Part shown: positions 8,849-61,100 of the stretch, piece by piece | Position numbering within the stretch: the stretch's first letter is position 1 | Layout of the letters: the number at the start of each line of letters is the position of its first letter | Origin: Thunnus maccoyii | Taxonomy: Eukaryota > Chordata > Actinopteri > Scombriformes > Scombridae | Assembly: GCF_910596095.1 (NCBI RefSeq) | Contig: NC_056554.1 | Coordinates: 1,860,001 to 1,924,000 of the forward strand | Direction of reading: 5' to 3' | DNA: 64,000 bases | Position numbers and translations under genes: made by a program | The notes under the pieces: model-generated | Seen by the model: the letters and a program-made list of their open reading frames with translations, nothing else | The model's database searches: none | What the model was told of the DNA's origin: nothing

Positions 8849-11800
8849 ATGGTAGTAGAGGTGGAGAGCTTCTTTGGTGTGTACATGCTGTACTGCATCA
8901 ACCCGAAATTCAAAGGCTGCATCTACATTGGCTTCACTGTGAACCCCGAGCGCAGGATCGGACAGCACAACGCCGGACGGCACCGCGGAGGAGCCAAGAG
9001 GACCAGCGGCAGAGGACCGTGGTATGAATACTGCACTGAACTACATATCTATACTGCACTGTACTGCATATCTATCCTGCACTGTACTACATATCTATAC
9101 TGCACTGTACTACATGATCACATGATCATACTGCACTGTAAAACATATATATAGGTACTGCACTGTACTACATGTCTATACTGCACTGTACTACATGATC
9201 ATACTGCATTGTACTATATGATCATACTGCACTGTACTACATATCTATACTGCACTGTACTACATGATCACATGATCATACTGCACTGTACTATATGATC
9301 ATACTGCACTGAACTACATATACATACTGCACTATACTACATATCTATACTGCACTGAACTACATTTCTATACTGCACTGTACTATATGATCACACTGCA
9401 CTGTACTACATATCTATACTTCACTGTACTACATGATCATATTGCACTACACTATATATCGGCACTGCACTGTACTACATACTCATACTGCACTACACTA
9501 CATATCTATATCCACTGTACCACATGATCATACTGCACTGTACTACATATCTATACTGCACTACATGATCTATACTATACTGTACTACATGATCACTCTG
9601 TATTACATGATTTATACTGTCCTACATCTGTGTAATCTGGTATGAATACTGCATTGTACTACATGATCATTCTGTACTACATGATCTACTACATCTGTGT
9701 AATCACATAGTGATATTCTGATTATATTCCTTTGTCTTGTTCAGGGAGATGGTCCTCATTATACACGGCTTTCCCTCTGATATTGCTGCCCTGAGGGTAA
9801 GTAAGATTTTGATATGACTAATATTGAATGTCAATATATTCTAATCATGTTTAAAGATATATAACAGTAAACTGTACTGTGTCATAGTCATCATTTGGAC
9901 TCATTATCTATATTTATAATAGGGCTTTAACTAACAATTATTTTCATCATCAAATAATCTGTCGATTATTTTCTCGATTAATCGATTAGTTATTTGTTCT
10001 ATAAAATGTCATAAAATGGTGAAAAATGTCAATCACTGTTTCCTCAAGCCCAACATGCAACCTTAGATGTCTTGTTTTGTCCTGACCAACAGTCCACAAC
10101 CCAAAGATATTCACTTTACTGTCACAGAGGACTAAAGAAACCAGAAAATCTTCACATTTAAGAAGCTGGAATCAGATAAATTGGACATTTTTTCTTTAAA
10201 AAAATGACACCAAACAATTAATTAATGATAAAAAAAAAAATAGTTGACAGTTCAATAGTTGGCAACCAATTGATTAGCTCTATGCGTTGCAGTTCTCTCC
10301 ATCATTTCAAATATTGACCTGGAAATGTTCAAAATACGTCCCCTTTAAAATAAAAAAGTAAGAGTGTTAAAGAAACCTATCAAATGTCTAATGCCAAGCA
10401 GGTGTAGTTGTACTGTATGTTTTATGTCATTAGTTATGTCAGTTTTTAGTCAGATATTCCTTAAATATTCATTTGCTCCATGAAAACTGGGCAATTCATT
10501 CCATTATTTTCATTATAAATTGCTCTTAAATCCAATCCCAGTACATGACTTTGCTTTAAGCCATGAATAATTCTGTCATTGTATTTCTCTGTCAGTTTGA
10601 GTGGGCGTGGCAGCATCCTCACTCCTCCAAGCGTCTCTCCCACGTCTCTCGGCGCTCCAGAAAGGAGTCGAGCCTGCAGTTCCACTGGCGCGTCGTATCC
10701 AACATGCTGCGGGCGGCGCCGTGGAACAGGCTGCCGCTGACGGCCCGCTGGCTCAAGCAGGAATACAGGATGGACTTCGAGCCCAGTCTGCAGCCTCCTC
10801 TGCACATCCCCATCGCATTTGGGAGCGTGAGAGCCAAGAAGAAGCTGCCGTTGCAGTCTTCTGGGGAGGAGGAGGAGACATCCAGGTGCTTCCTCTGCAG
10901 AGGTCTGGTCAAGGTAAAATCTCTTTACATATACAGTATAAGCACCCGGTGTTAACATGTGATCTGTATCTGGGTTTGTTATCACAGGTTTTTGGCATTT
11001 ACAACTCAAATCCTTGTTTTCCTCAGGTGTCGGAGAAGCTGAGCTGTTTCCACCCGTCCTGTGGGATGAGCAGTCATGTGATCTGCCTATCTAAGCATTT
11101 CCTGAAGTCAGAGCCATCCCACCTCCTGCCTGTGGAGGGCCAGTGTCCAGCCTGTCGTCGCTCAGTGCTGTGGGGGAGTCTCATCCGTCAGAAACACGGC
11201 TGTTTTGGAGACCTGGAGGAGTTCACACCGTCTGCATCTCAAGTAAGTTACAGGAGAGTTAGCTTTGTGTGTGTGTGTGTGTGTGCGTGTGTGTGTGTGG
11301 AGGACAGACAGATCTAATAGTTACTGTTCTTATTGGATATTGCCATGTCCCACTTCATTTTTGTTTACCTCATGATATGGACATGATGCAGTTTCACTTA
11401 CATACAGTGTATCACTATATCTTGAAGACACTAATTCAAATAAATATGAGGAGTGAGTATAAAGCTTCTTTCAGACATGCACATTTGAATAAACACCTGA
11501 GACATTTTTAGCAAAAGTCATGACAAAAATCTTACTGAGTCAAAGCTGTAACATTTCTGTAACACTTAAAAGCTGTACAAATCATTCACAATAATAATCA
11601 GACCAGCACTCTATATGACAAAAAGCCAGACAGCAATGTTACATAATACATGTCTGAAAAGGGTTCAGTGTGTCAGTGCTGTATGGCTCAGGCATGGAAA
11701 TGAACAGTGATTAAAGCAGCCTCAGCTATAGAGAAATCTGATTAGGGAAGTAGACAGGTAGTGGTGGCATCTCACCTCTAAATCTGCATATCACTGTAAT

Positions 11801-25795: not shown

Positions 25796-26333
25796 TTACA
25801 GAGACTGGTAGCCATCAGCCCTCTTCCTGCGGCCCAGCAGGTAGGCCACCACCACAATGACAATGAGCACCAGCAACGTCACTCCCACTGCAATGGCAAC
25901 GCGGTAATCTGGTCGGTCAGCAGCACAGTGGTCAGCTGGAAAAACATACGATACACACATATCAGATTTACTTCTGACAACCAGGTGAATCATGGACCTC
26001 TATTCAGTAAACCCTATGTAACAAATTACTACTACACAAAAACAACACAATACAAAATTTAAGATATTCATATCTTCAGAAATTCATTTATTTTTTAATA
26101 ATTAATAAGATGTTCAAATTAAGAAGTGCAAACGTCAGTAAAATCAATGGAATCATCAACCACTAGCTTCACTTGAAAGCTGACTTAGGAAGGGTTTATT
26201 TACCAAGTATGGAAGTCTATGGTTGCCAATATTAAAAATGAAATAATTTATTCAAGCTGAATCTTCATTTTCTATCTGTGCTTGTATGATGTATGACAAA
26301 AGTTTACATAACTATAAATAATATATATTCAAA

Positions 26334-26365
<32 letters not shown>

Positions 26366-29300
26366 ATAATAATAATAATAATTTACATAACTCAATTTTC
26401 ATTTTCATGTTTGAAAATGCATAATTATTACTAAATGAAAACTGAAATGAAATTAATTCCATCTAAAAAATATCTTTTTGGTTAAAAATAAACTAAAATC
26501 AAGTTCAAGTCCAATATTCAATATCCCATATGAGAATGAAAAGTCCATTTTACATACAATGTCATTATCATCATGGCAGTACAATGAAAAAAGTTATGTT
26601 TTCATTTTTCGCAGAAATTATGCATTTTCAAAAAATCTGATATGTGCTGCCCCTCAGCAGCTTCCAGAAAGCTGGCCAATCAGAACAGAGTGGGCTCATT
26701 GGGAGGCGGGCTTTAAAGAGACACGAGTTAAGACTGCCTGTTAGAGAAAGAGACTGAACTGAGTTTTTTGAACTGTGAATCACGCAAAGCTACTCTAGTG
26801 GAGTCCAAAAATAAAAATTTAGAGCTGGACAATAGCATAATAGGTCCTCTTTAAGCACTTTTGCGTGTAAAAGTGCTATATAAATAAAGCTATTATTATT
26901 ATCATTATTATTATTATTGTTATTATTAGTGTTGACTGTTCTGATGGTTTCACACTTATTAGGTATATATAAGTCATATAATATGTCCAGTTCTGAACAT
27001 GATGCTGCTTTCTTCTGCTATTGCTGCTCATGCGAAAACCAGCTGACAATTGTTCATATTAAACATTGGCCATTTATAAAATCATAACCAATATGATGAT
27101 ATTCAAGTGGTAGAGGTAGCTTAGGGATTTGAACCTTGAACCTTATTCGAGTACTGTACTTGTGTACAATTCTTAGGCACTCGTACTCTACTTAAGTCTT
27201 TTTATTTTATGCTACTTTATATTTCTACTCCACTACATTCATTATACTTTAAAAATATATATATATATATATTGTACTTCTTACTCCACTACATTTATTT
27301 GAGAGCTATGTTAGGGTTTTACATACAAAACATATGATTGGTTTATAAAATATGATGCATTGCAAGGGGCCATTCTCCATGACACGTACTTTAAATACAT
27401 TTAGCTGATAATACCTCTGTACTTTTGCTTAAATATATTTTTAATAGAAAGCACATACATGTTTTAATGAGAAGCTCTCACAAAGCCAAAAATGCTCCCT
27501 GATTGATTTTTCTTCAGAATAAATAAATGCCATTTGAGGACACTTACGATTGCCAAAATCATTATTGGTCAGATTGAAGGCCTGCATCCTGTCTTGGTTG
27601 ACATCCAGGTACAGTCCATTGCCCATGTAAATGGATTCAGCCCTGCAGGAGTAGGAGCGTCCGACCTTTGCAGCGAAGAGATGCACTGACGAGTTTTTGG
27701 CATTGTACTCCTTAACTGCAACAGAGAAGCAAAGCAAAGCTCAAGTCTGCTTAGAACATAATGACAATTCCCATAAAAACAAATGTAGATTGTCAGATAT
27801 GGAACAAAACTTGTTAAACTGAATAGCACTGAAATAGGCTGGATATTACTGGCAACACATGCTTAACAGTAATTCCACAGATTGTGTCTATACATAGTTG
27901 AACACACAAACAAGGAAGTTGACTCTAAAATGCTCCTTGTCTATGTTAATATTTGCCAGTCTTGTGCAACACCCACTGCAGCTGAAATATCAGTGCCAAT
28001 GCAGTGACCCAATAAGAAGAGTCTAAAGTTTAATCAGTAACACCTTACTTTGAGTCCCCATATTTAGCGTTTAAAAGCAGTATGTAACCATTTAATAAAT
28101 GTTTTTTAACACTATAATGTAGTTATAAGTAAGATATAAAGACATTTTAAGTGTTTATTAATGTGCAGTATTTGTCTCCTATGGAGACATATTTCATATT
28201 ATTTCAACTGTGTTTTACTATATTGTTATTCAATATCTGATTATGTGTGCCCACAGGAGGAGTTATAGCTATTGACCAATACACTAACAAACAGTTACAT
28301 CTGCTTATTACAGTACTACATTGTGGTGTGTAATGAAACATGTATTAACTGTTGATATACTGCTTATAAATGCCAAAAAGGGGTAGATAAAATTAAAGTG
28401 TTACTGTTTAATCAATAAAATAGTAGTACACGATATATGTAGAGACAAGAATAAAAGTAAGTAAGTATTTCTGACTTACGGTCTTTGCTTAAGGGGTAGG
28501 ACAGGGTGAAAGACAACTCATCAACGTAGGCCGTATTTTCAGAAGCACTCTGAGGAAATAAAGTAAAATACAGGGTAAAAGACAAATCATCAACGTAGGC
28601 CGTATTTTCAGCAGTACTCTGAGGAAATAAAGTAAAATACAGGGTGAAAGACAAATCATCAACGTAGGCCGTGTTTTCAGCAGTACTCTGAGGAAATAAA
28701 GTAAAATAGGACAGGCTTTCACTAAGGTAGTCATCCAATGGAATTGAGTAATTCAAGGTGACGATTCAGCATTTTAACGTCACTAGACACAGTAGTGTAA
28801 TTAAATGTGAGTTACTGTTCTTAATTCATTGTCCATGGAATAATGTGATGGGGAATTTACTGGAATCCTTTTCATCACAAACAGAGATTGTTTTAGGCAG
28901 CTGTTGTTTCAGCACGTCTACAGCTAAAAACAGACAGAACTTGTCTGTCTGGTCAACCAACCGTTTTATTATAGTATTAACCCTTTACCACTCACAGCTC
29001 TTTCGTGTTTCTAAAATGGTTTTCATATAGTTTGACATTATTTGTTCACACTAGGGTTTCGATAGCTGGTTTCAAGTTGATATGTTAGTTTTGTTAAACT
29101 CCTTTAGTTAGCTATAAAGCAGCGCAGCATTTATTAGTTCTCCAAATGTCAAATTGATTTTCACTTTTCAACTATAAGGTTGTAACCTTAGAGCAAAATC
29201 TTTCTCACCAGTATGTTGAGCAATTCACTCCAAACATCTTTATAAGTATGGAATTTTTTTTTAATTTATAGGTTTTTTTATTTAATATTCATGATTTTAG

Positions 29301-32300
29301 TGTCCTTTAACAAACACAATTCCCCACAAGCTCAAGCCAAACCAACATTTATGATGAGCTATTATGTGTACTGCAGCACTGGTAGAACTTAATGGGAGCT
29401 GTAGTTTTTGGGTTTTTTTTACAATTTAATTGTTGTTTAACTGTGTTAAAATCCCAAATGTTTCATGCTAATAGCCAGTGATGTAGTAGATGCTCATTTG
29501 TCTTAGAATATTGATAGAATACCCAAAAAACACGTTTCAATTCCCAAAAAATGAAAAAAACGAACTATCAATCATATTGCGTTGGCTTTACAGAAGCTAA
29601 TGGAACAGTGCCAACCCGGACAGGATGTCAAGACTTTAGCTCTCAATACAGATCAAATCTGAGGTTGCTTACCAGTATAGATCCAGTCGGTCTGTCTGGA
29701 GAACTAACCTTTACTGTATTGTTATTGATTCCTAGCTCACAAGCAGAGGCTAAAATACAGAACAACAGATACTGGCTAGTAGTTACATGTAAGCATTTCC
29801 ATTACTTGCTTTGCTAAATTATCTTGCTAGCAAGTTAGTTAGCTGACAAAGTCAAGAACCAAGTGATTGTTCAGGTAAACTGAGTTTATGCTTTTCAACC
29901 TATGAGGAAACAGTCGTTTTCATTGTATTATTAAACTAGATTTAAAGGACTTTCATTTTACCAGACTTTACTACTACTTCTACTTGTAAAATAACTAAAT
30001 GGATCAACACACAATGTACAACAATATTTTTCAGGTATCCTGTTTGCTAAAATGGTTCTTAAATATTTCAACCAATAGCGGCCAGCCAATAGAAGGCGCA
30101 CGCAACACCACACCAAAGCTTTATTCAGAGTCAGTAAGATTAAGAAATTATTTTTAATTATTTTTTTACATTACTATATTAGCAGATAATGTTTTTACTT
30201 TTTAGGCCTTATCTTACTTCATGTGAAGTAATACAGTCCTAACCCTATTTCAGAAATGTTTCTTTAAAAGATCTCCATGACTTCACCACCTGTTGTTGTT
30301 GGGAGATTTGTGTTGCATTTGCTAAAATACAGTGTTAGATAAAGATAAGGCACATGTTCTTGTTAGTTAACTGTATCTGTAACTAGGTTTTGTTGTTGAC
30401 AATGATACATTGATGTTATGCTTCCTTGAAAATTCTCGAATTCTCAATTCTCTCTCTGTTCGGGAGTGTCCCTTACAAATCTAACAATAACTGAATCACA
30501 CAAGCATTGTGCAGTGAGGCAGTGTGATACAGTTTTGTCTGTCACATGCTGTATGGCCAGGCTTGTCAACTAACCATACTTCCCTTTTTTAACAATTCTT
30601 CACTGATTCCACTTCCTATATGAAGTTACCAGTCAAACAATTTGTTATTCATCAAGAGACTGACTGGGACAATTGTGTTAATGTCACAGAACTAAAAATG
30701 GTTACTCAAGAATTTGAGCAAAATTCCAAATCAGTGTGAGCAGGTCAAAGATGCATGTCCTGTCCTTACTTTCTTTATCACCACATGCACTCATCATTAC
30801 AATGCCATATTTGAGACAAATCTAGGGAAACAAAAGTACCTTGTTGAACATGAAGGTGATATGGCCTTCCTTGAAGACGAGGGTAAGGTTGGCCTTTTTT
30901 TCTCCACAAGATCCGTCTGCTTTGGTCAACGCTGGCTGAACAATGAAGGTTCCATTGGCCTGAAAGATGAACAGAGAGAAAACAGGCAATTAGATGGCCA
31001 CCTTGTATCAGAATGATCCAGTAGATACCATGGCAGCCACATTGTTTCTTAAGAGAAACAATATTGCTCTGTCATGCAGGATTAGCAATTGTCTCATGAC
31101 ACAAAGATGACACACATTTAACCTACTGCAGTCATTAGACACACTGCATTGAGGAAATAAAAACTTGCATGAAAACTTTTTTCTCAATTCCTGAAAACAG
31201 ATTGCTGACGATCGCATTGCCAAAAGCTGAGCCAGGGGCTTGTGCTGAAAGTTCTATACATGCTGACATATTCTGTGATTCATATATGAAAAAAAATTGG
31301 CCAGAGAGATGATAGCCTTGAATTGTCCTTATAAATCCATAAATGCAGTTTTTAAGATTAGAATCTGATGATCTATCTTTGTAGGGGCTCTTGTTGTGTC
31401 TATTGTGACTAATGAAGTGTACCTTTGGTGTTGCCAGCCGAATCTGCACTGCCATCTGAGCCATCAGGCAAACTTTCTTGTCTTTTGTCAGGTTGTACTT
31501 TCCTTCAGTCAAGTTGGCAGGAGGAGTAGGTGTAGGGGTTGTAGTAGGCTTGGGGGTGGTAGTTGTAGGCTTGGTGGTGGAAGTTGTAGGCTTGGCGGTG
31601 GTAGTTTTAGGCTTGGCGGTGGTAGTTGTAGGCTTGGGGGTGGTAGTTGTAGGCTTGGCGGTGGTAGTTTTAGGCTTGGGGGTGGTAGTTGTAGGCTTGG
31701 GGGTGGGAGTTGTAGACTTGGCTGTGGTAGTTGTAGGCTTGGGGGTGGGGGTGGAGGTGTTTGTCTGGGTAGTTGTAGCACCAGGAGTGGAAGCTGGAGG
31801 ACTGTTCACAAACTCACCCGGAGCGGACATGGTTGCAGAGGGTTTGGACCTCTTTTCATTTTCAGCCAATGATAGCGCTTCAGTTAACAAGACAGAGAAG
31901 GAGAAACAAAGCCATTTGAATATTCATACATATACCACTTCCCAACTCAAGAATATTCTACTTAAAGCTGCATTGACTTGTTATTTTTGGCCACTTGGGG
32001 GCAGCTGAACAAGCTGAAGACACAACATATATCATCACCTTATGAAGTCAAAAAACAGTTGTCTTCTAGCAGTCACGAAGCAACATTAGCATTCATTTTT
32101 TTGTGTCCACCTGGTGAATTTAAGTCCAATATTCACTCTCCTTTTAGTTCTGTCTTAGTCTCCATTAACTCACGAGGAAATATCTTTCTCTTTAGCTGCT
32201 AAATGCTTCACTATGTTCACCAGCTATTTGCTAACTGTGTCTGTCTGCTGTTTGGTGCTGGATGGGTAGTGTACAGTGGGTTTATCAGAGCTTTTTCACT

Positions 32301-33598
32301 TAAAACATCTGTCTGCTGCTGCTGGAAATTAAGTTGATAAGAGCTGAAACCAAAACAATGAGCTAAAAGAAGCTAAAAAGCTCTGTAGAACTGTGGGGAA
32401 CAGCAGATTTGGTAATAATTATCTGGGGGTTCATCACCATAATTGACCTCTATCACATTATACATAGTCATTTGATCCACTGCTAATATAAAAAATACTG
32501 ATTAGTGCAGCTTTAATGTTGGTTGTCTAGCAGCTTTAGACCATTAATCAAAAATTAAAATTAGCTGTTAGACTTAGCCTGACTGCTTTGCATGCCAACT
32601 GATGTCATCATATTTATTGAAGCACAGAGTCCACAGCACATTTATGATGCTTGTGATGTGTGTTCAGTGCACAGTTTATCTGCAGGTCCAGGCAGTGGTT
32701 ACTGAAATGTCCTAATTTAGGATTCAGATAGAAAAGGTGACTGGGTTTTAAACACAGATGGTGGACTTGAAAAGTGTTGCGTTAGCACTTTTGTGTTACT
32801 GATTGTGCTCAGCTTGAGCTTGACAAATGGACAAGTGATTTTAAGCAGTGATAAATGAGTAAATACAACCTATGACCTCCACTCAGTGGTCAGCATTAGG
32901 TAAACAACTGCCAGAGTGAACAGAAATGTGTAATATATTTTTTTTAAAGACAATGTGATTTAACATCTAATTTAGAGTAATTAGTAATACCTAATTGCAC
33001 TTAAATATTCTTTGAAAACTTGATTGTACATCCCAATAAAGACAAGAAAACTTGCTTAATTGGCGTATAAATGTCAGAAAATGTCGAATATCCACTGCTG
33101 ATTTCAACACCGAGATTTGGAGTTGAACACAAGTTGCAGATTCATCCTGTCCTCTAAAAAACATCCCTCCCCAGCAGACATGTGACTCAAGTGCAACACT
33201 ATCGAAAGACTGCGGAAATTTCTGTTCCCTAAACAATCCAGGAAGTCACAGAGAGGTCGTATAAAACATCTGTTAATTTTCACTGCACAAAAAAACATGC
33301 AAAATTCGCTCCATAACCCAAGTAAGGCAGCAATAATCTAACATAAAGGCTGCATAAAATAAGCTATAACACTGTAGTTTTGACATATGTCACAACGTGA
33401 AGCAACACAAGCGACAACACTCCGTTGTGTTATAAAACAATTAGTAATGTACTGGAGCAAAGCTGGACAAAGTCCTTCGCTAACTTGCTAAAAACACCTC
33501 ACAGCTTGTTTTTGTTTTTACAGAGTCGTCGAAATTGAAAGCGACTTACCTGAGACAGCACAGCAGGCCATGAAAATGAACACAACAGCCTTGTTCAT
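25796..33598 (-). CDS. cd68: Mucin-LAMP lysosomal membrane glycoprotein (CD68/LAMP3-like), 6 exons, 333 aa
   Basis: Exons 33598-33550, 31877-31423, 30959-30840, 28549-28480, 27715-27548 and 25935-25796 join in phase (333 codons plus stop, using the innermost exon 4 acceptor). Residues 1-16 form a signal peptide (MNKAVVFIFMACCAVS). Next comes a Thr/Pro mucin stretch built from KPTTTTA-type 7-residue repeats. One LAMP domain follows with four Cys (KKVC, GSCGE, YSCRA, DHCAA), as in the two-disulfide LAMP fold, and sequons NLT, NGT, NSS. A single span (VAIAVGVTLLVLIVIVVVAY) precedes the tail GRRKRADGYQSL, whose GYQSL fits the GYxx-hydrophobic lysosomal sorting signal. Mucin plus one LAMP domain fits CD68, but LAMP3 has the same plan and the span resembles LAMP1, so the symbol is tentative. 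Expected role: late-endosome/lysosome glycoprotein of phagocytes. Confidence 0.8.
26333..26381. repeat. (ACT)n then (AAT)n microsatellite
   Basis: About ten ACT units run directly into six AAT units, within the last intron of the LAMP-like gene. Confidence 0.95.
26640..26853. mobile_element. MITE fragment ending GGTCCTCTTTAA
   Basis: The right end ATAATAGGTCCTCTTTAA is the reverse of a widespread teleost MITE head (TTAAAGGGGACCTATTAT-like), with typical interior GGCCAATCAGAACAGAGTGG. The left end was not located. Confidence 0.5.
26857..26930. mobile_element. SINE/LINE 3' tail fragment
   Basis: AAAAGTGCTATATAAATAAAG followed by ATT repeats is the shared 3' tail of L2-clade LINEs and their SINEs. 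No body sequence recognised upstream. Confidence 0.5.
27130..27320. mobile_element. hAT-type MITE fragment (same family as 19.6 kb)
   Basis: Contains CTACTCCACTACATTCATTA, an AT tract, then CTCCACTACATTTATTTGAG, words shared with the elements at 19623-20268 and 42823-43381. Neither terminal CAGTGGTG is present, so only a fragment. Confidence 0.6.
28035..28406. mobile_element. MITE, family C, copy 2 (LAMP-like gene intron 4)
   Basis: Inverted ends CAGTAACACCTTACTTTGA and AATTAAAGTGTTACTG. The outside bases share TTTAAT on both sides (a 6- to 7-bp putative target duplication). No open reading frame. Confidence 0.7.
28550..28687 (-). repeat. Two extra 69-bp copies of splice acceptor plus exon 4
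   Basis: Beside exon 4 (28480-28549) lie two further copies of a 69-bp unit (28550-28618 and 28619-28687). Each contains the exon start (AGTACTGCTGAAAA...) and the end of the intron (TTTACTTTATTTCCTCAG). The copies differ at only two positions, and each is 23 codons with no stop in the exon frame. Three AG acceptors (before 28549, 28618 and 28687) are therefore all usable in frame. Confidence 0.95.
31535..31750 (-). repeat. 21-bp coding minisatellite (mucin repeats)
   Basis: About ten tandem 21-bp units inside exon 2 encode 7-residue Thr/Pro/Lys repeats (KPTTTTA or KPTTTTP variants). They expand the O-glycosylated stem. The opposite strand shows a long Val/Gly open frame that is only a shadow. 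Confidence 0.9.
31962..32516. mobile_element. TTAA-flanked MITE, family E, copy 1 (LAMP-like intron 1)
   Basis: Bounded by TTAA at 31962-31965 and 32513-32516, with inverted ends TTAAAGCTGCATTGACTTG and ATTAGTGCAGCTTTAA. Words such as GTGTACAGTGGGTTTATCAG and CCAAAACAATGAGCTAAAAG recur at 53.7-54.1 and 62.9-63.2 kb. Non-coding. Confidence 0.8.
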
Positions 33599-40600: not shown

Positions 40601-41734
40601 TGTTGAGCTATTACTTTAAAAGCGACACCAAAGCTGTTGACACAACCAACAAACCATACAGTCTCCCTTTGTTTTAATATGTTGTATTCTGTTAGCTTTT
40701 AATTGCCCACTGGCTATCTTTGACCCTGGTAAACTTGTGATATAAACTCATGATCAACGTACAAGCCTTAAAGCTGGAGTGCGGGACTTTTACATATAAA
40801 TGAATGTCCGTTACATTCCTCTGCTGGCTGAGCTAGCTAACTTCCGATTTAGCCCTTTGCTAACTTGACTATTTAACTATTTACTCTCACTGCCAGAAGA
40901 GGGAGACAGAAGTTCCACACTCCAGGTTTAAATCAAATGAATAAAACAAAACAAACAAAAAAAACCTCCAATCATCCACCGCACTTTCATTAATTTGTGG
41001 AAACCTCTCCTTGTCTTTGTATCCTACTTGCAGAGGTGCTGAAGGAGGTGGATGAAGTATTTGAGAAGTACAAAGGTGAGCAAGATGCAGCTCAGAGAAA
41101 GCGCCTGCAGATCCAGCTGCAGCGGGCACTCATTATCAGCCAGGAGCTGGGCGACGAGAAGATCCACGTGGTGACCCAGATGACGGAGCTGGTGGAGAAT
41201 CGCTCCCGCCAAATGGACTCCCACTCCCTGTGCCTCCAGGAACCCGGCGAGTCTGAGCGGCTCACTACAGAGCGGCGCTCCAACGTCCAAGAGTCCCCAG
41301 CTCCTGAACGCACCTCAGCCCGCCGCCCACGACGCCAACGCAACAGCGAGAGTCGTGACTCCAGCCACCCATCAGCCAACGGCTCTCTAGTAGACGACCC
41401 TGTGGAGGAACTCTCCCTACCTCCGCCCCGAGAGAAGAAATCCAAATCTGCGAAGAAGAAGAAGCGCAAGGCCAAACAGGAACGAGACGCCTCACCAGTC
41501 GACTTTGCAATCGACCCCAATGAGCCCACCTACTGTCTCTGCGAGCAAGTGTCTTATGGTGAGATGATCGGCTGCGACAATGACCAGTGCCCCATCGAGT
41601 GGTTCCACTTTTCCTGTGTGGGGCTGACCTACAAGCCCAAGGGCAAGTGGTACTGCCCCAAATGCAGAGGGGACAATGAAAAGACCATGGACAAAAGCCT
41701 AGACAAGAACAGAAAAGACCGCCGGTCCAGGTAG
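37668..41734 (+). CDS. ing2: Inhibitor of growth protein 2, PHD-finger chromatin reader, 2 exons, 281 aa
   Basis: Exons 37668-37812 and 41034-41734 join in phase (CAA G | AG GTG) to 281 codons plus stop; human ING2 is 280 aa. The N-terminal ING domain (about 14-115) has [20 protein letters not shown] and [15 protein letters not shown] basic stretch near 184-198 ([15 protein letters not shown]) looks like a nuclear signal. The PHD finger (216-259) has the C4HC3 residues in CLCEQ, GCDNDQC, HFSC, CPKC and the YGEMIGCDN and W residues used to read H3K4me3. The polybasic tail ends [21 protein letters not shown] and the tail favour ING2 over ING1. Family role: subunit of Sin3-HDAC complexes linking H3K4me3 to deacetylation. 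The start is the ATG in MLGHHYPN, equivalent to human MLGQ. Confidence 0.95.
39090..39480. repeat. AT-rich diverged duplicate repeat in ing2 intron
   Basis: A block of about 130 bp with AGGATTTTCTCAGTCCTATT and GGAAATCTGTTTTTT appears twice (near 39191 and 39330). Words such as CCTATAGGA and CCTATAAGAC occur in both orientations, suggesting an eroded inverted-repeat element. Confidence 0.6.
39860..40618. mobile_element. Long-TIR MITE with internal insertion (ing2 intron)
   Basis: The left arm (GAGTAGTTCACCTTTTTGAA, GAGAATGAGATGAGA) is mirrored at the right (TCATCTCATTCTCAG, TTTTCAAAAATGTTGAGCTA), as are GGCCTAGCTTAGCATAAAG and ATGCTAAGCTAGGCTAACC. A different repeat (AGTCGCCCTCTGCTGGAATG) seems to sit inside near 40325-40500. 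Confidence 0.65.
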
Positions 41735-58100: not shown

Positions 58101-61100
58101 GAATTTTCCTTCAAGTCACCTCAGAAAGGAACATTTGCTACAAAGCACTTTCTCTGCCTGTAAGTTTGAAGATGAAGGCTTTATCACGCTTATAAGGACT
58201 TTCATTTGACACTTTTAACTGAGCGAACTGTAAATTAGTTAATGCTCTTGAGGCTTACTATATTATTCCCATGCCTGCCATCTCATATTACGAGCAACCA
58301 CCTGTGACCTACTTTGTTGTTTATCTGATACCTCCACCTGTCAGGTGTGAAGGTATGACTGTGTTAATTACTCTGAAAGCATCGCATCACTGTTTTCTAT
58401 TTGGCTTTAATTAGATGGTGACAGAATAAAGAAAAAAGCTTTTATCATCTTGCTGACATCCCTGGAGCATCAGCTTCAGTATCCTTTATTATTTCATTAT
58501 GTGACAGGAGGTAAGGCATGAAGGAATCACCTCTGTACTACATTACACTGGCGAGGCACATGAGAGGTAGCCAGTCTTAATAATTCACAACTGTTCAAAG
58601 CCAGTGGTGAAATTTGTCTGGATACCCTTTGTTAACAAGCCTGGTTTCACAGCTTGTTATCAAAGGGATATGTGATATTATTTAAGAACAAGGTCACTCG
58701 CAGTGACACTTGTGGCTCATGCATTATGAATGTGATGCTGCTGAGATCACCATCATTCGACATTCATGGTGACCAACTGAAATCTGAACATGCTGGCTGT
58801 GTAAAGAGGGATCCAGTAAGACTTATATACACTCAGCGAGCACCTTATTAGGAACACCTGTATAATCTAATGCAATCCAAGACAACAGCTTTGCCATAAA
58901 TTCTACTTTTACAAAGTTTATATATTTTCAGTTTTTGTTGACAGTTGTCAGAAAGGTGATAATTCTACTTTATGTTTATTATTGAGGTTGTATGACTGAT
59001 GGTGTACTGTAGTGTATTATATTGAAAAGTGTTACTAAAAATTCCCCCCCCTCATGTACAGTACCAGTCAGAAGCTTGGACATTCCTACTCATTCAAGGG
59101 TTTTTCTGTATTTCTACTATTTTCTACATTTTAGAACAATACTGAAGACATCAAAACTATGAAATAACATATATGGAATCATGTAGTAAACAAAAAAGTG
59201 TTAAACCAAAATGTATTATATTTCATATTTTAGATTCCTTGAAGTAGCCATTGTTTGCTTTGATTGCAGCTTTGCACACTCTTGGCATTCTCTCAGCCAG
59301 CTTCATGAGGTAGTCACCTGGAATGCTTTTCCAACAGTCTTGAAGGAGTTCCCACATATATGCTGAGCACAGTTGGCTGCTTTTCCTTAACTCTGCAGTC
59401 CAGCTCATCCCAAACCATTTCAACTGGGTTTATGTTGGGTGATTGTGGAGGCCAGGTCATCTGATGCAGCATTCCATTACGTCTCACAAAGACACAGTGG
59501 TTGGAACCAAAAATTGCAAATTTGGACTCATCAGACAAAAGTAAAGATTTGGGTCTGGTCTAATGTCCATTCCTTGTGTTCTTTGGCCCAAGCAATTCTC
59601 TTCTTCTTATTGGTCTCCCTCAGTAGTGGTTTCTTTGCAGCAATTCAAGCATGAAGGTCTGATTCACGCGGTGTCCTCTGAACAAATAATGTTAAGATGT
59701 GTCTGCTACTGGAACTCTGGGATGCATTGATGTGGGCTCTAATCTGAGGTGCCTTAATTGGTGATTTGTGAGGCTTGTAACTCTAATGAACTTCTCCTCT
59801 GCAGCAGAGGTAACTCTTGGTCTTCCTTTCCTGGGGTGGTCCTCATGAGAGCCAGTTTCATCAAAGCATTTGATGGTTTTTGCGACTGCACTTGAAGAAA
59901 CTTTCAAAGTTCTTGAAATTTTCCAAACTGACTGATTTTCATGTCTTAAAGTAATGATGGATTGTTGTTTCTCTTTAGTTAGCTTAGCGGTTGTTGCCAT
60001 AATATGGATTACTATAATAGTGGAATAGGGCTATTTGCTATGTACCAACATTACCTCAGCATAACTGGTGGTCTCAAACGCATTAAGAAGGCAAGAGATT
60101 CCACTAATTAACTTCTAATGGTGCAGTACAGCACAGTGGAATAAGACCTATCAGGCTTTGGATGCACACTTAATACTATACTTGTAAGTAGGATGAGTTA
60201 ATTGTTGGTTTGGCTGTGCACATGAGATTTATTGACAATAAGAAAAAGCTATATCTTTTAATGGACTGGATCAGGAGCCCGTTTAGAAAATGACATTAGT
60301 ATACAGTTTTAGTATTGACTATTTCAACTGAGTTCAACAAATGAAACACTGTTGTGCTATGTCATCCTTAATTTATTTTATGTCAGTAGTTTCTAATTAA
60401 AAGTTAGAGAAAGAAAAAACACTATTGTCAAATTCACATACTGTCAGTGATGAACAAATATATCAACCTGTAGGCGAAGAGGACATAGTCTTTGATGGAG
60501 GTGTTGGATAGGAGAATGGAGCGGTCTTTGTGGATCGCCTCACGCTCCAAGGAAATGTTAACACAGTGCAGCAGAGAGCAGGAAGTGGTCAGGTCAAAAA
60601 CCTATATACACAAGAGACAGCTTTTAATAACTTTAATGAGCATGGTCAATGGTCAAATTGAGTTGTAACTTTTCAACCAAGACTCTTTCTAAATGTAGCC
60701 AGTTTAAAAAATACCATATATTGTAATAAAGTTTATGTTAAGAGAAAGTTAATTAAGGTTAAAAGAGACATCATAAATATGGTTTAAAAAAAAAAAGCAA
60801 TTTCCTAAAAGATTAAAAGGTTCAGTGGAATCAATAAGTTTAAAAATATGCAGATGTATTGTTATAAATATTCATTTTATTTTGAAGAGTTCATGGTAGT
60901 AAAAGGAAGTAGTATTCCAGAGTGAGTTTAATGCTGGTCATTCATTGGTTGAAGTGGGTGGGATCACACCATGGATGTATAAGAAGAGCTGGATAGGGCG
61001 CCGCTGCTCAGCCTTGCAGCCAATTTTTCCCTGTGGCCACTCGCGGTATTGCAGCGAAAAATCCCCCTGCGGCCCAAAAAGGATTTTCCCCATAGACCAC

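Follow-up and report, generated by a model that had tools for sequence, protein, structure and literature searches.

The presence of three splice acceptors with the same local sequence ahead of one exon raises the question of which of them the spliceosome would choose, and what protein each choice would give. The gene concerned is a CD68-like (macrosialin, LAMP family) gene on the minus strand of the window, that is, the whole 64,000-nucleotide stretch of DNA that was analysed, which is part of contig 22, one of the 54 contigs that make up a 782-Mb genome. By reading the splice sites and translating, six coding exons were followed from ATG to stop (Table 1). The boundary between intron 3 and exon 4 sits in three tandem units of 69 bp (28708-28502, minus strand), which TRF reports as an array at 28501-28708 with 3.0 copies, 95% matches and a score of 381. 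Every unit consists of TATTTTACTTTATTTCCTCAG, the 21 bases that close the intron with a final CAG, followed by 48 exon bases, and TTTCCTCAGAG occurs exactly three times on the minus strand of the window, setting exon starts at 28687, 28618 and 28549. Acceptors 28549, 28618 and 28687 lead to open proteins of 333, 356 and 379 residues, respectively. The tripled acceptor and exon start put forward in the original prediction are thus borne out, as are the predicted proteins with 0, 23 or 46 extra residues in frame. Each of the three acceptors reads CAGAG, so that a second AG ends two bases into the exon; its use would shift the frame.

Table 1. Coordinates of the CD68-like gene, the 69-bp units and the direct repeat, as positions in the window
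Feature	Position	Strand	Remarks
CD68-like gene	25796..33598	-	splice sites and translation, Pfam, PDB matches
Coding exons 1, 2, 3	33598-33550, 31877-31423, 30959-30840	-	
Coding exons 4, 5, 6	(28687, 28618 or 28549)-28480, 27715-27548, 25935-25796	-	
Exon 3	30840..30959	-	phase 0 end with HITFMFNK, directly before the insertion point
Direct repeat CCTGTCCTA, intron copy	28707..28715	-	
Unit U0, outermost	28640..28708	-	21 intron bases, then exon; acceptor 1, exon start 28687
Unit U1, middle	28571..28639	-	acceptor 2, exon start 28618
Unit U2, innermost, continuous with the remainder of exon 4	28502..28570	-	acceptor 3, exon start 28549
Direct repeat CCTGTCCTA, exon copy	28497..28505	-	
Probable ancestral 70-nt exon 4	28480..28549	-	phase 0 start; last base belongs to a split codon
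Exon 4 donor GTAAGT	28479	-	

Read by eye, the protein begins like a signal peptide and continues with a Thr/Pro/Lys-rich stretch, a single LAMP luminal domain and a membrane helix before its tail, GYQSL. In the 333-residue version, Pfam finds PF01299, the membrane-proximal LAMP luminal domain, at 107.6 bits (cut-off 27.2) and PF21222 at 29 bits (cut-off 27), and a PDB search with the protein matched chains of LAMP1, LAMP3 and LAMP2; the LAMP-like family assignment made earlier is supported. CD68 (macrosialin) has a mucin-like Thr/Pro-rich stretch ahead of one LAMP domain. The 333-residue version has a single PF01299 stretch, and its exon 2 carries a T/P/K repeat (31537-31748). LAMP3 (DC-LAMP) is likewise described with a single domain of this type, preceded by a stretch that is proline-rich and O-glycosylated (PMC3409847); because it shares the same general plan, CD68, a name resting on architecture, is the likelier name but is not proven. 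The repeat in the mucin-like exon 2 is given by TRF as a 21-bp in-frame unit in about 10 copies on the minus strand, and is a second in-frame tandem expansion in this gene.

Going by their sequence, the extra units are the product of an internal tandem duplication across the splice boundary. U0 and U1 differ at 2/69 sites, both synonymous, which agrees with the two-site difference claimed for the extra units; U2 differs from each of them at 4/69 sites, three of which give T/A, A/S and D/E. The 21 intron-derived bases, CAG included, are identical in all three units, and all five variable columns fall in the exon part, the chance of 0/5 in the 21/69 intron-derived positions being 0.15. That both U0/U1 changes are synonymous has a chance of about 0.14 for random transitions and 0.05 for any base change, on a tiny sample of two. 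The low divergence of U0 and U1 suits the recent event proposed originally, and "recent" is a reasonable reading of it, but the 95% range of 0.4-10% around 2/69 is too wide to date the event. The simplest history would be that one tandem duplication copied the intron 3/exon 4 boundary, the copies diverged, and the outer copy was then duplicated again.

The direct repeat CCTGTCCTA had been proposed as the template for this duplication, and part of that proposal stands: the repeat is found at both edges of the array, its copies being 210 bases apart (3x69+3), or 72 apart with one unit. The inner junctions, however, read CCCTGTATTTTAC, three bases short of CCTGTCCTA. Because a clean exchange between the copies should leave a 72-bp unit with CCTGTCCTA at the inner junctions, and three bases are missing, the observed junction is not the direct product of such an exchange; the joint would reflect either a loss of three bases afterwards or a joining with about one base of homology. 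Some repeated 9-mer appears in 228/3000 shuffles of the 173-base single-copy model, and the mere presence of a 9-bp repeat is mild evidence; its placement at both edges is what counts. The open frame is likewise a claim that holds for all three acceptors but carries little weight as evidence. A unit length divisible by three has a chance of one third, and seven codons before the exon are open in 8/10 acceptor contexts checked and nine in 7/10, two of the ten contexts being the cd68 exon 4 itself. Since one third of lengths fit and intron tails are often open, the in-frame, stop-free state is about a one-in-four event for such a duplication, and it is inherited by the second duplication.

The LAMP paralogs of the same genome point to the state before the duplication. 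Exon 4 is single in 4/4 paralogs examined, with 67 nt in C1, 73 nt in C7, 55 nt in C8 and 67 nt in C11, and in each it starts in phase 0 directly after the stretch that closes exon 3; the paralog phases and the exon boundaries of C1 and C8 were read by eye, and the comparison covers these four, with the C17 paralog, weaker hits and orthologs left out. With exon 4 single and short (55-73 nt) in all four, the 70-nt exon opened by 28549 is probably the ancestral form, and the extra units are the derived state, as had been supposed. TRF on eight paralog loci gave no array with a period of at least 20 at exon 4, and the sole array of that period in these loci is one of 22 bp, away from exon 4, in two overlapping C7 loci. 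A genome-wide search (782 Mb, 54 contigs) found no second copy or haplotig of the locus among the best-scoring candidates. Nor was a retrocopy recording the junction found: when exons 3-6 were searched as spliced cDNA, the four matches were the four exons of this locus. Relatives were sought among viral contigs as well, and there six stretches fitted a pattern and none was confirmed.

The extra residues would enter a folded domain. The PF01299 score is 107.6 bits for the version with no extra residues, 101.3 bits with 23 and 102.7 bits with 46, and in the two longer versions the match is broken in two. Such a drop and split are expected of an insertion inside a domain, and they suggest that the version with no extra residues has the ordinary fold. 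When the protein is aligned to the DC-LAMP domain (4akm), its insertion point comes right after FTK, five residues past the Asn numbered 291 by matching the glycosylated Asn291 to the NLT site (PMC3409847). From the published strand order, the insertion would fall in the turn that joins S6 to S7 in the back sheet, and the S7/S8 hairpin is described as flexible (PMC3409847). With each extra unit, the protein would gain another S7-like strand and the peptide YFTLFPQ from the former polypyrimidine tract. Since an insertion within the folded domain may do harm, 28549 would be favoured on this count.

Acceptor choice depends on the sequence upstream of the AG, where a branch point of the yTnAy type is expected and AGs before the acceptor tend to be excluded. 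The three acceptors are letter-identical from -21 to +3; thus, local strength cannot rank them, and the differences are upstream. Only 28687 keeps the whole original upstream intron, while 28618 and 28549 are preceded by copied exon. Upstream of 28687 there are 26 AG-free bases, with yTnAy motifs only at the close positions -15 and -10, and weaker candidates lie further up, such as ATGAC at -44, with AGs in between. For the two inner acceptors, the 65 nt upstream are free of AG and contain yTnAy motifs at -27 (TTCAC or TTTAC) and at -41 (TTGAT). Because the original site worked with the upstream sequence now left to 28687 alone, 28687 is expected to be in use, and because plausible branch points are present in the copied exon, some use of the inner acceptors is expected too. 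Indeed, an inner acceptor could win, since the only yTnAy motifs of 28687 are close and its other candidates stand behind AGs. On these features, we favour 28687 as a major acceptor, predicting 46 extra residues, with the inner acceptors as alternatives.

Taken as a whole, the best explanation of the locus is a duplicated boundary at which 28687 would be used substantially and the inner sites as alternatives, and we hold it with about even confidence. As the first acceptor after the original intron, 28687 would turn the copied polypyrimidine tract into coding sequence for YFTLFPQ and add 46 residues between S6 and S7 of the LAMP domain, while 28618 and 28549 would borrow branch points from the copied exon to give 23 extra residues or none. 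Three outcomes are live: isoform diversity, as originally predicted, constant use of 28687 and constant use of 28549. With 28687 alone, exon 4 would carry a constant extension of 46 residues without alternative splicing; this first acceptor has kept the ancestral upstream intron, and the synonymous nature of both U0/U1 differences agrees with it, but the consensus-like branch points and long AG-free stretches of the inner acceptors speak for their use as well, and we consider constant use of 28687 rather unlikely. With 28549 alone, the outer units would be silent intron and the protein the ordinary one of 333 residues. This outcome is suited by an exon about as long as in the four paralogs examined, by the LAMP domain score, which is highest for this version, and by a 65-nt AG-free stretch with TTTAC at -27; however, it would require the spliceosome to pass two upstream acceptors identical from -21 to +3, one of them in the original intron context, and no silencing feature was seen in either, which makes it unlikely.

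Two further possibilities concern the array itself. An assembly error, in which the true genome would have one or two units, fits poorly with units that differ at 2-4 sites, as a plain assembler duplication of one sequence would not produce, and the contig is 27 Mb long with one locus found among the best-scoring candidates; we regard such an error as very improbable. The duplicated boundary could also have created a new small intron, for which potato RdRp, where an intron-exon boundary was likewise duplicated, is a precedent (PMC4974935). The stretch 28715-28470 has 16 GTs, and the one that fits GTRAG is the known exon 4 donor; the GT at 28686, one base past acceptor 1, would leave an exon of one base. 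Because the array holds no GTRAG donor, its units cannot easily become new introns, and the new-intron model, hardly credible here, was set aside for want of a fitting donor within the array. Returning to the duplicated boundary with alternative acceptors, it is conceivable, though doubtful, that the array acts as a copy-number-variable cassette of acceptor and beta-strand, of which individuals or tissues would use 0, 1 or 2 extra units. Were this so, a macrophage lysosomal receptor would gain or lose whole strand-like pieces of 23 residues according to the splice site chosen, and a former polypyrimidine tract would encode part of each new piece.

Other features of the window were recorded alongside the CD68-like gene. 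On the plus strand, a GIY-YIG gene at 9022-9744 (Pfam 38.3 bits), which we take to be SLX1-like, contains a 23-bp minisatellite at 9028-9595 (TRF) that starts from about the seventh intron base, directly past the donor GTATGA. This minisatellite is a second array in the window that begins at a splice site, in this case inside the intron; the donor-like TGGTATGAATACTGCAYTG is found again at 9638-9656, the exon ends having been read by eye. An ING-family exon lies at 40994-41731 on the plus strand, with an ING domain at 45.1 bits (cut-off 23.9) and a PHD finger at 23.4 bits, just below the cut-off of 24. On the minus strand, an open stretch at 59695-60030, perhaps a remnant of a Tc1-type transposase, gives helix-turn-helix matches below their cut-offs and a paired-box match just above its own (PAX, 23.7 bits, cut-off 22).

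A literature search gave no title, among those listed, that reports this array in a CD68 gene, and a text search with four peptide strings of the insert found no match in the papers covered. Teleost CD68 has been reported to be under positive selection in a CD68 cloning paper, the main text of which does not contain "exon", "intron" or "splic" (PMC9656401). The locus offers a natural test of how the spliceosome chooses among acceptors that share their local sequence and are set apart by position and upstream context alone. It further illustrates how intron could become protein through one duplication, in an immune gene and with the frame unbroken.

Several known systems resemble this arrangement. 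In NAGNAG tandem acceptors, rival acceptors stand before one exon and the protein changes by whole codons; the spacing there is 3 nt against 69 nt here, and the CD68-like acceptors come from the duplication of a whole site. Zhuo et al. (2007, PNAS) reportedly described introns arising from tandem arrays in human genes, with recent arrays giving alternatively spliced segments. The array is a known kind of arrangement, with precedents published for human and potato genes. In human duplicated genes, internal tandem repeats at exon-intron boundaries are described as altering splicing and coding (PMC2812944, Genome Biol 2009); 27 intron modifications stood after manual inspection, 66% of them also being supported for an alternative transcript that keeps the repeat (PMC2812944). 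As in that set, the CD68-like tandem units contain a splice boundary (PMC2812944). The human cases are paralogs from segmental duplications, backed by RNA evidence, with units averaging 30 bp (PMC2812944), whereas the CD68-like gene was found once in its genome, has a 69-bp unit with a complete acceptor and is described here from the DNA sequence. Tandem duplications have also been placed behind some novel introns in Drosophila (PMC2891723), and in potato RdRp an intron is described as gained via tandem duplication across an intron-exon boundary (PMC4974935). The potato and CD68-like duplications both copied the tract, the acceptor and the exon start, and the potato one also a putative branch site (PMC4974935), whereas the native branch site may be outside the CD68-like unit. 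In potato, the outcome was a new intron with its own donor (PMC4974935); in the CD68-like gene, it is only extra acceptors and possible coding sequence.
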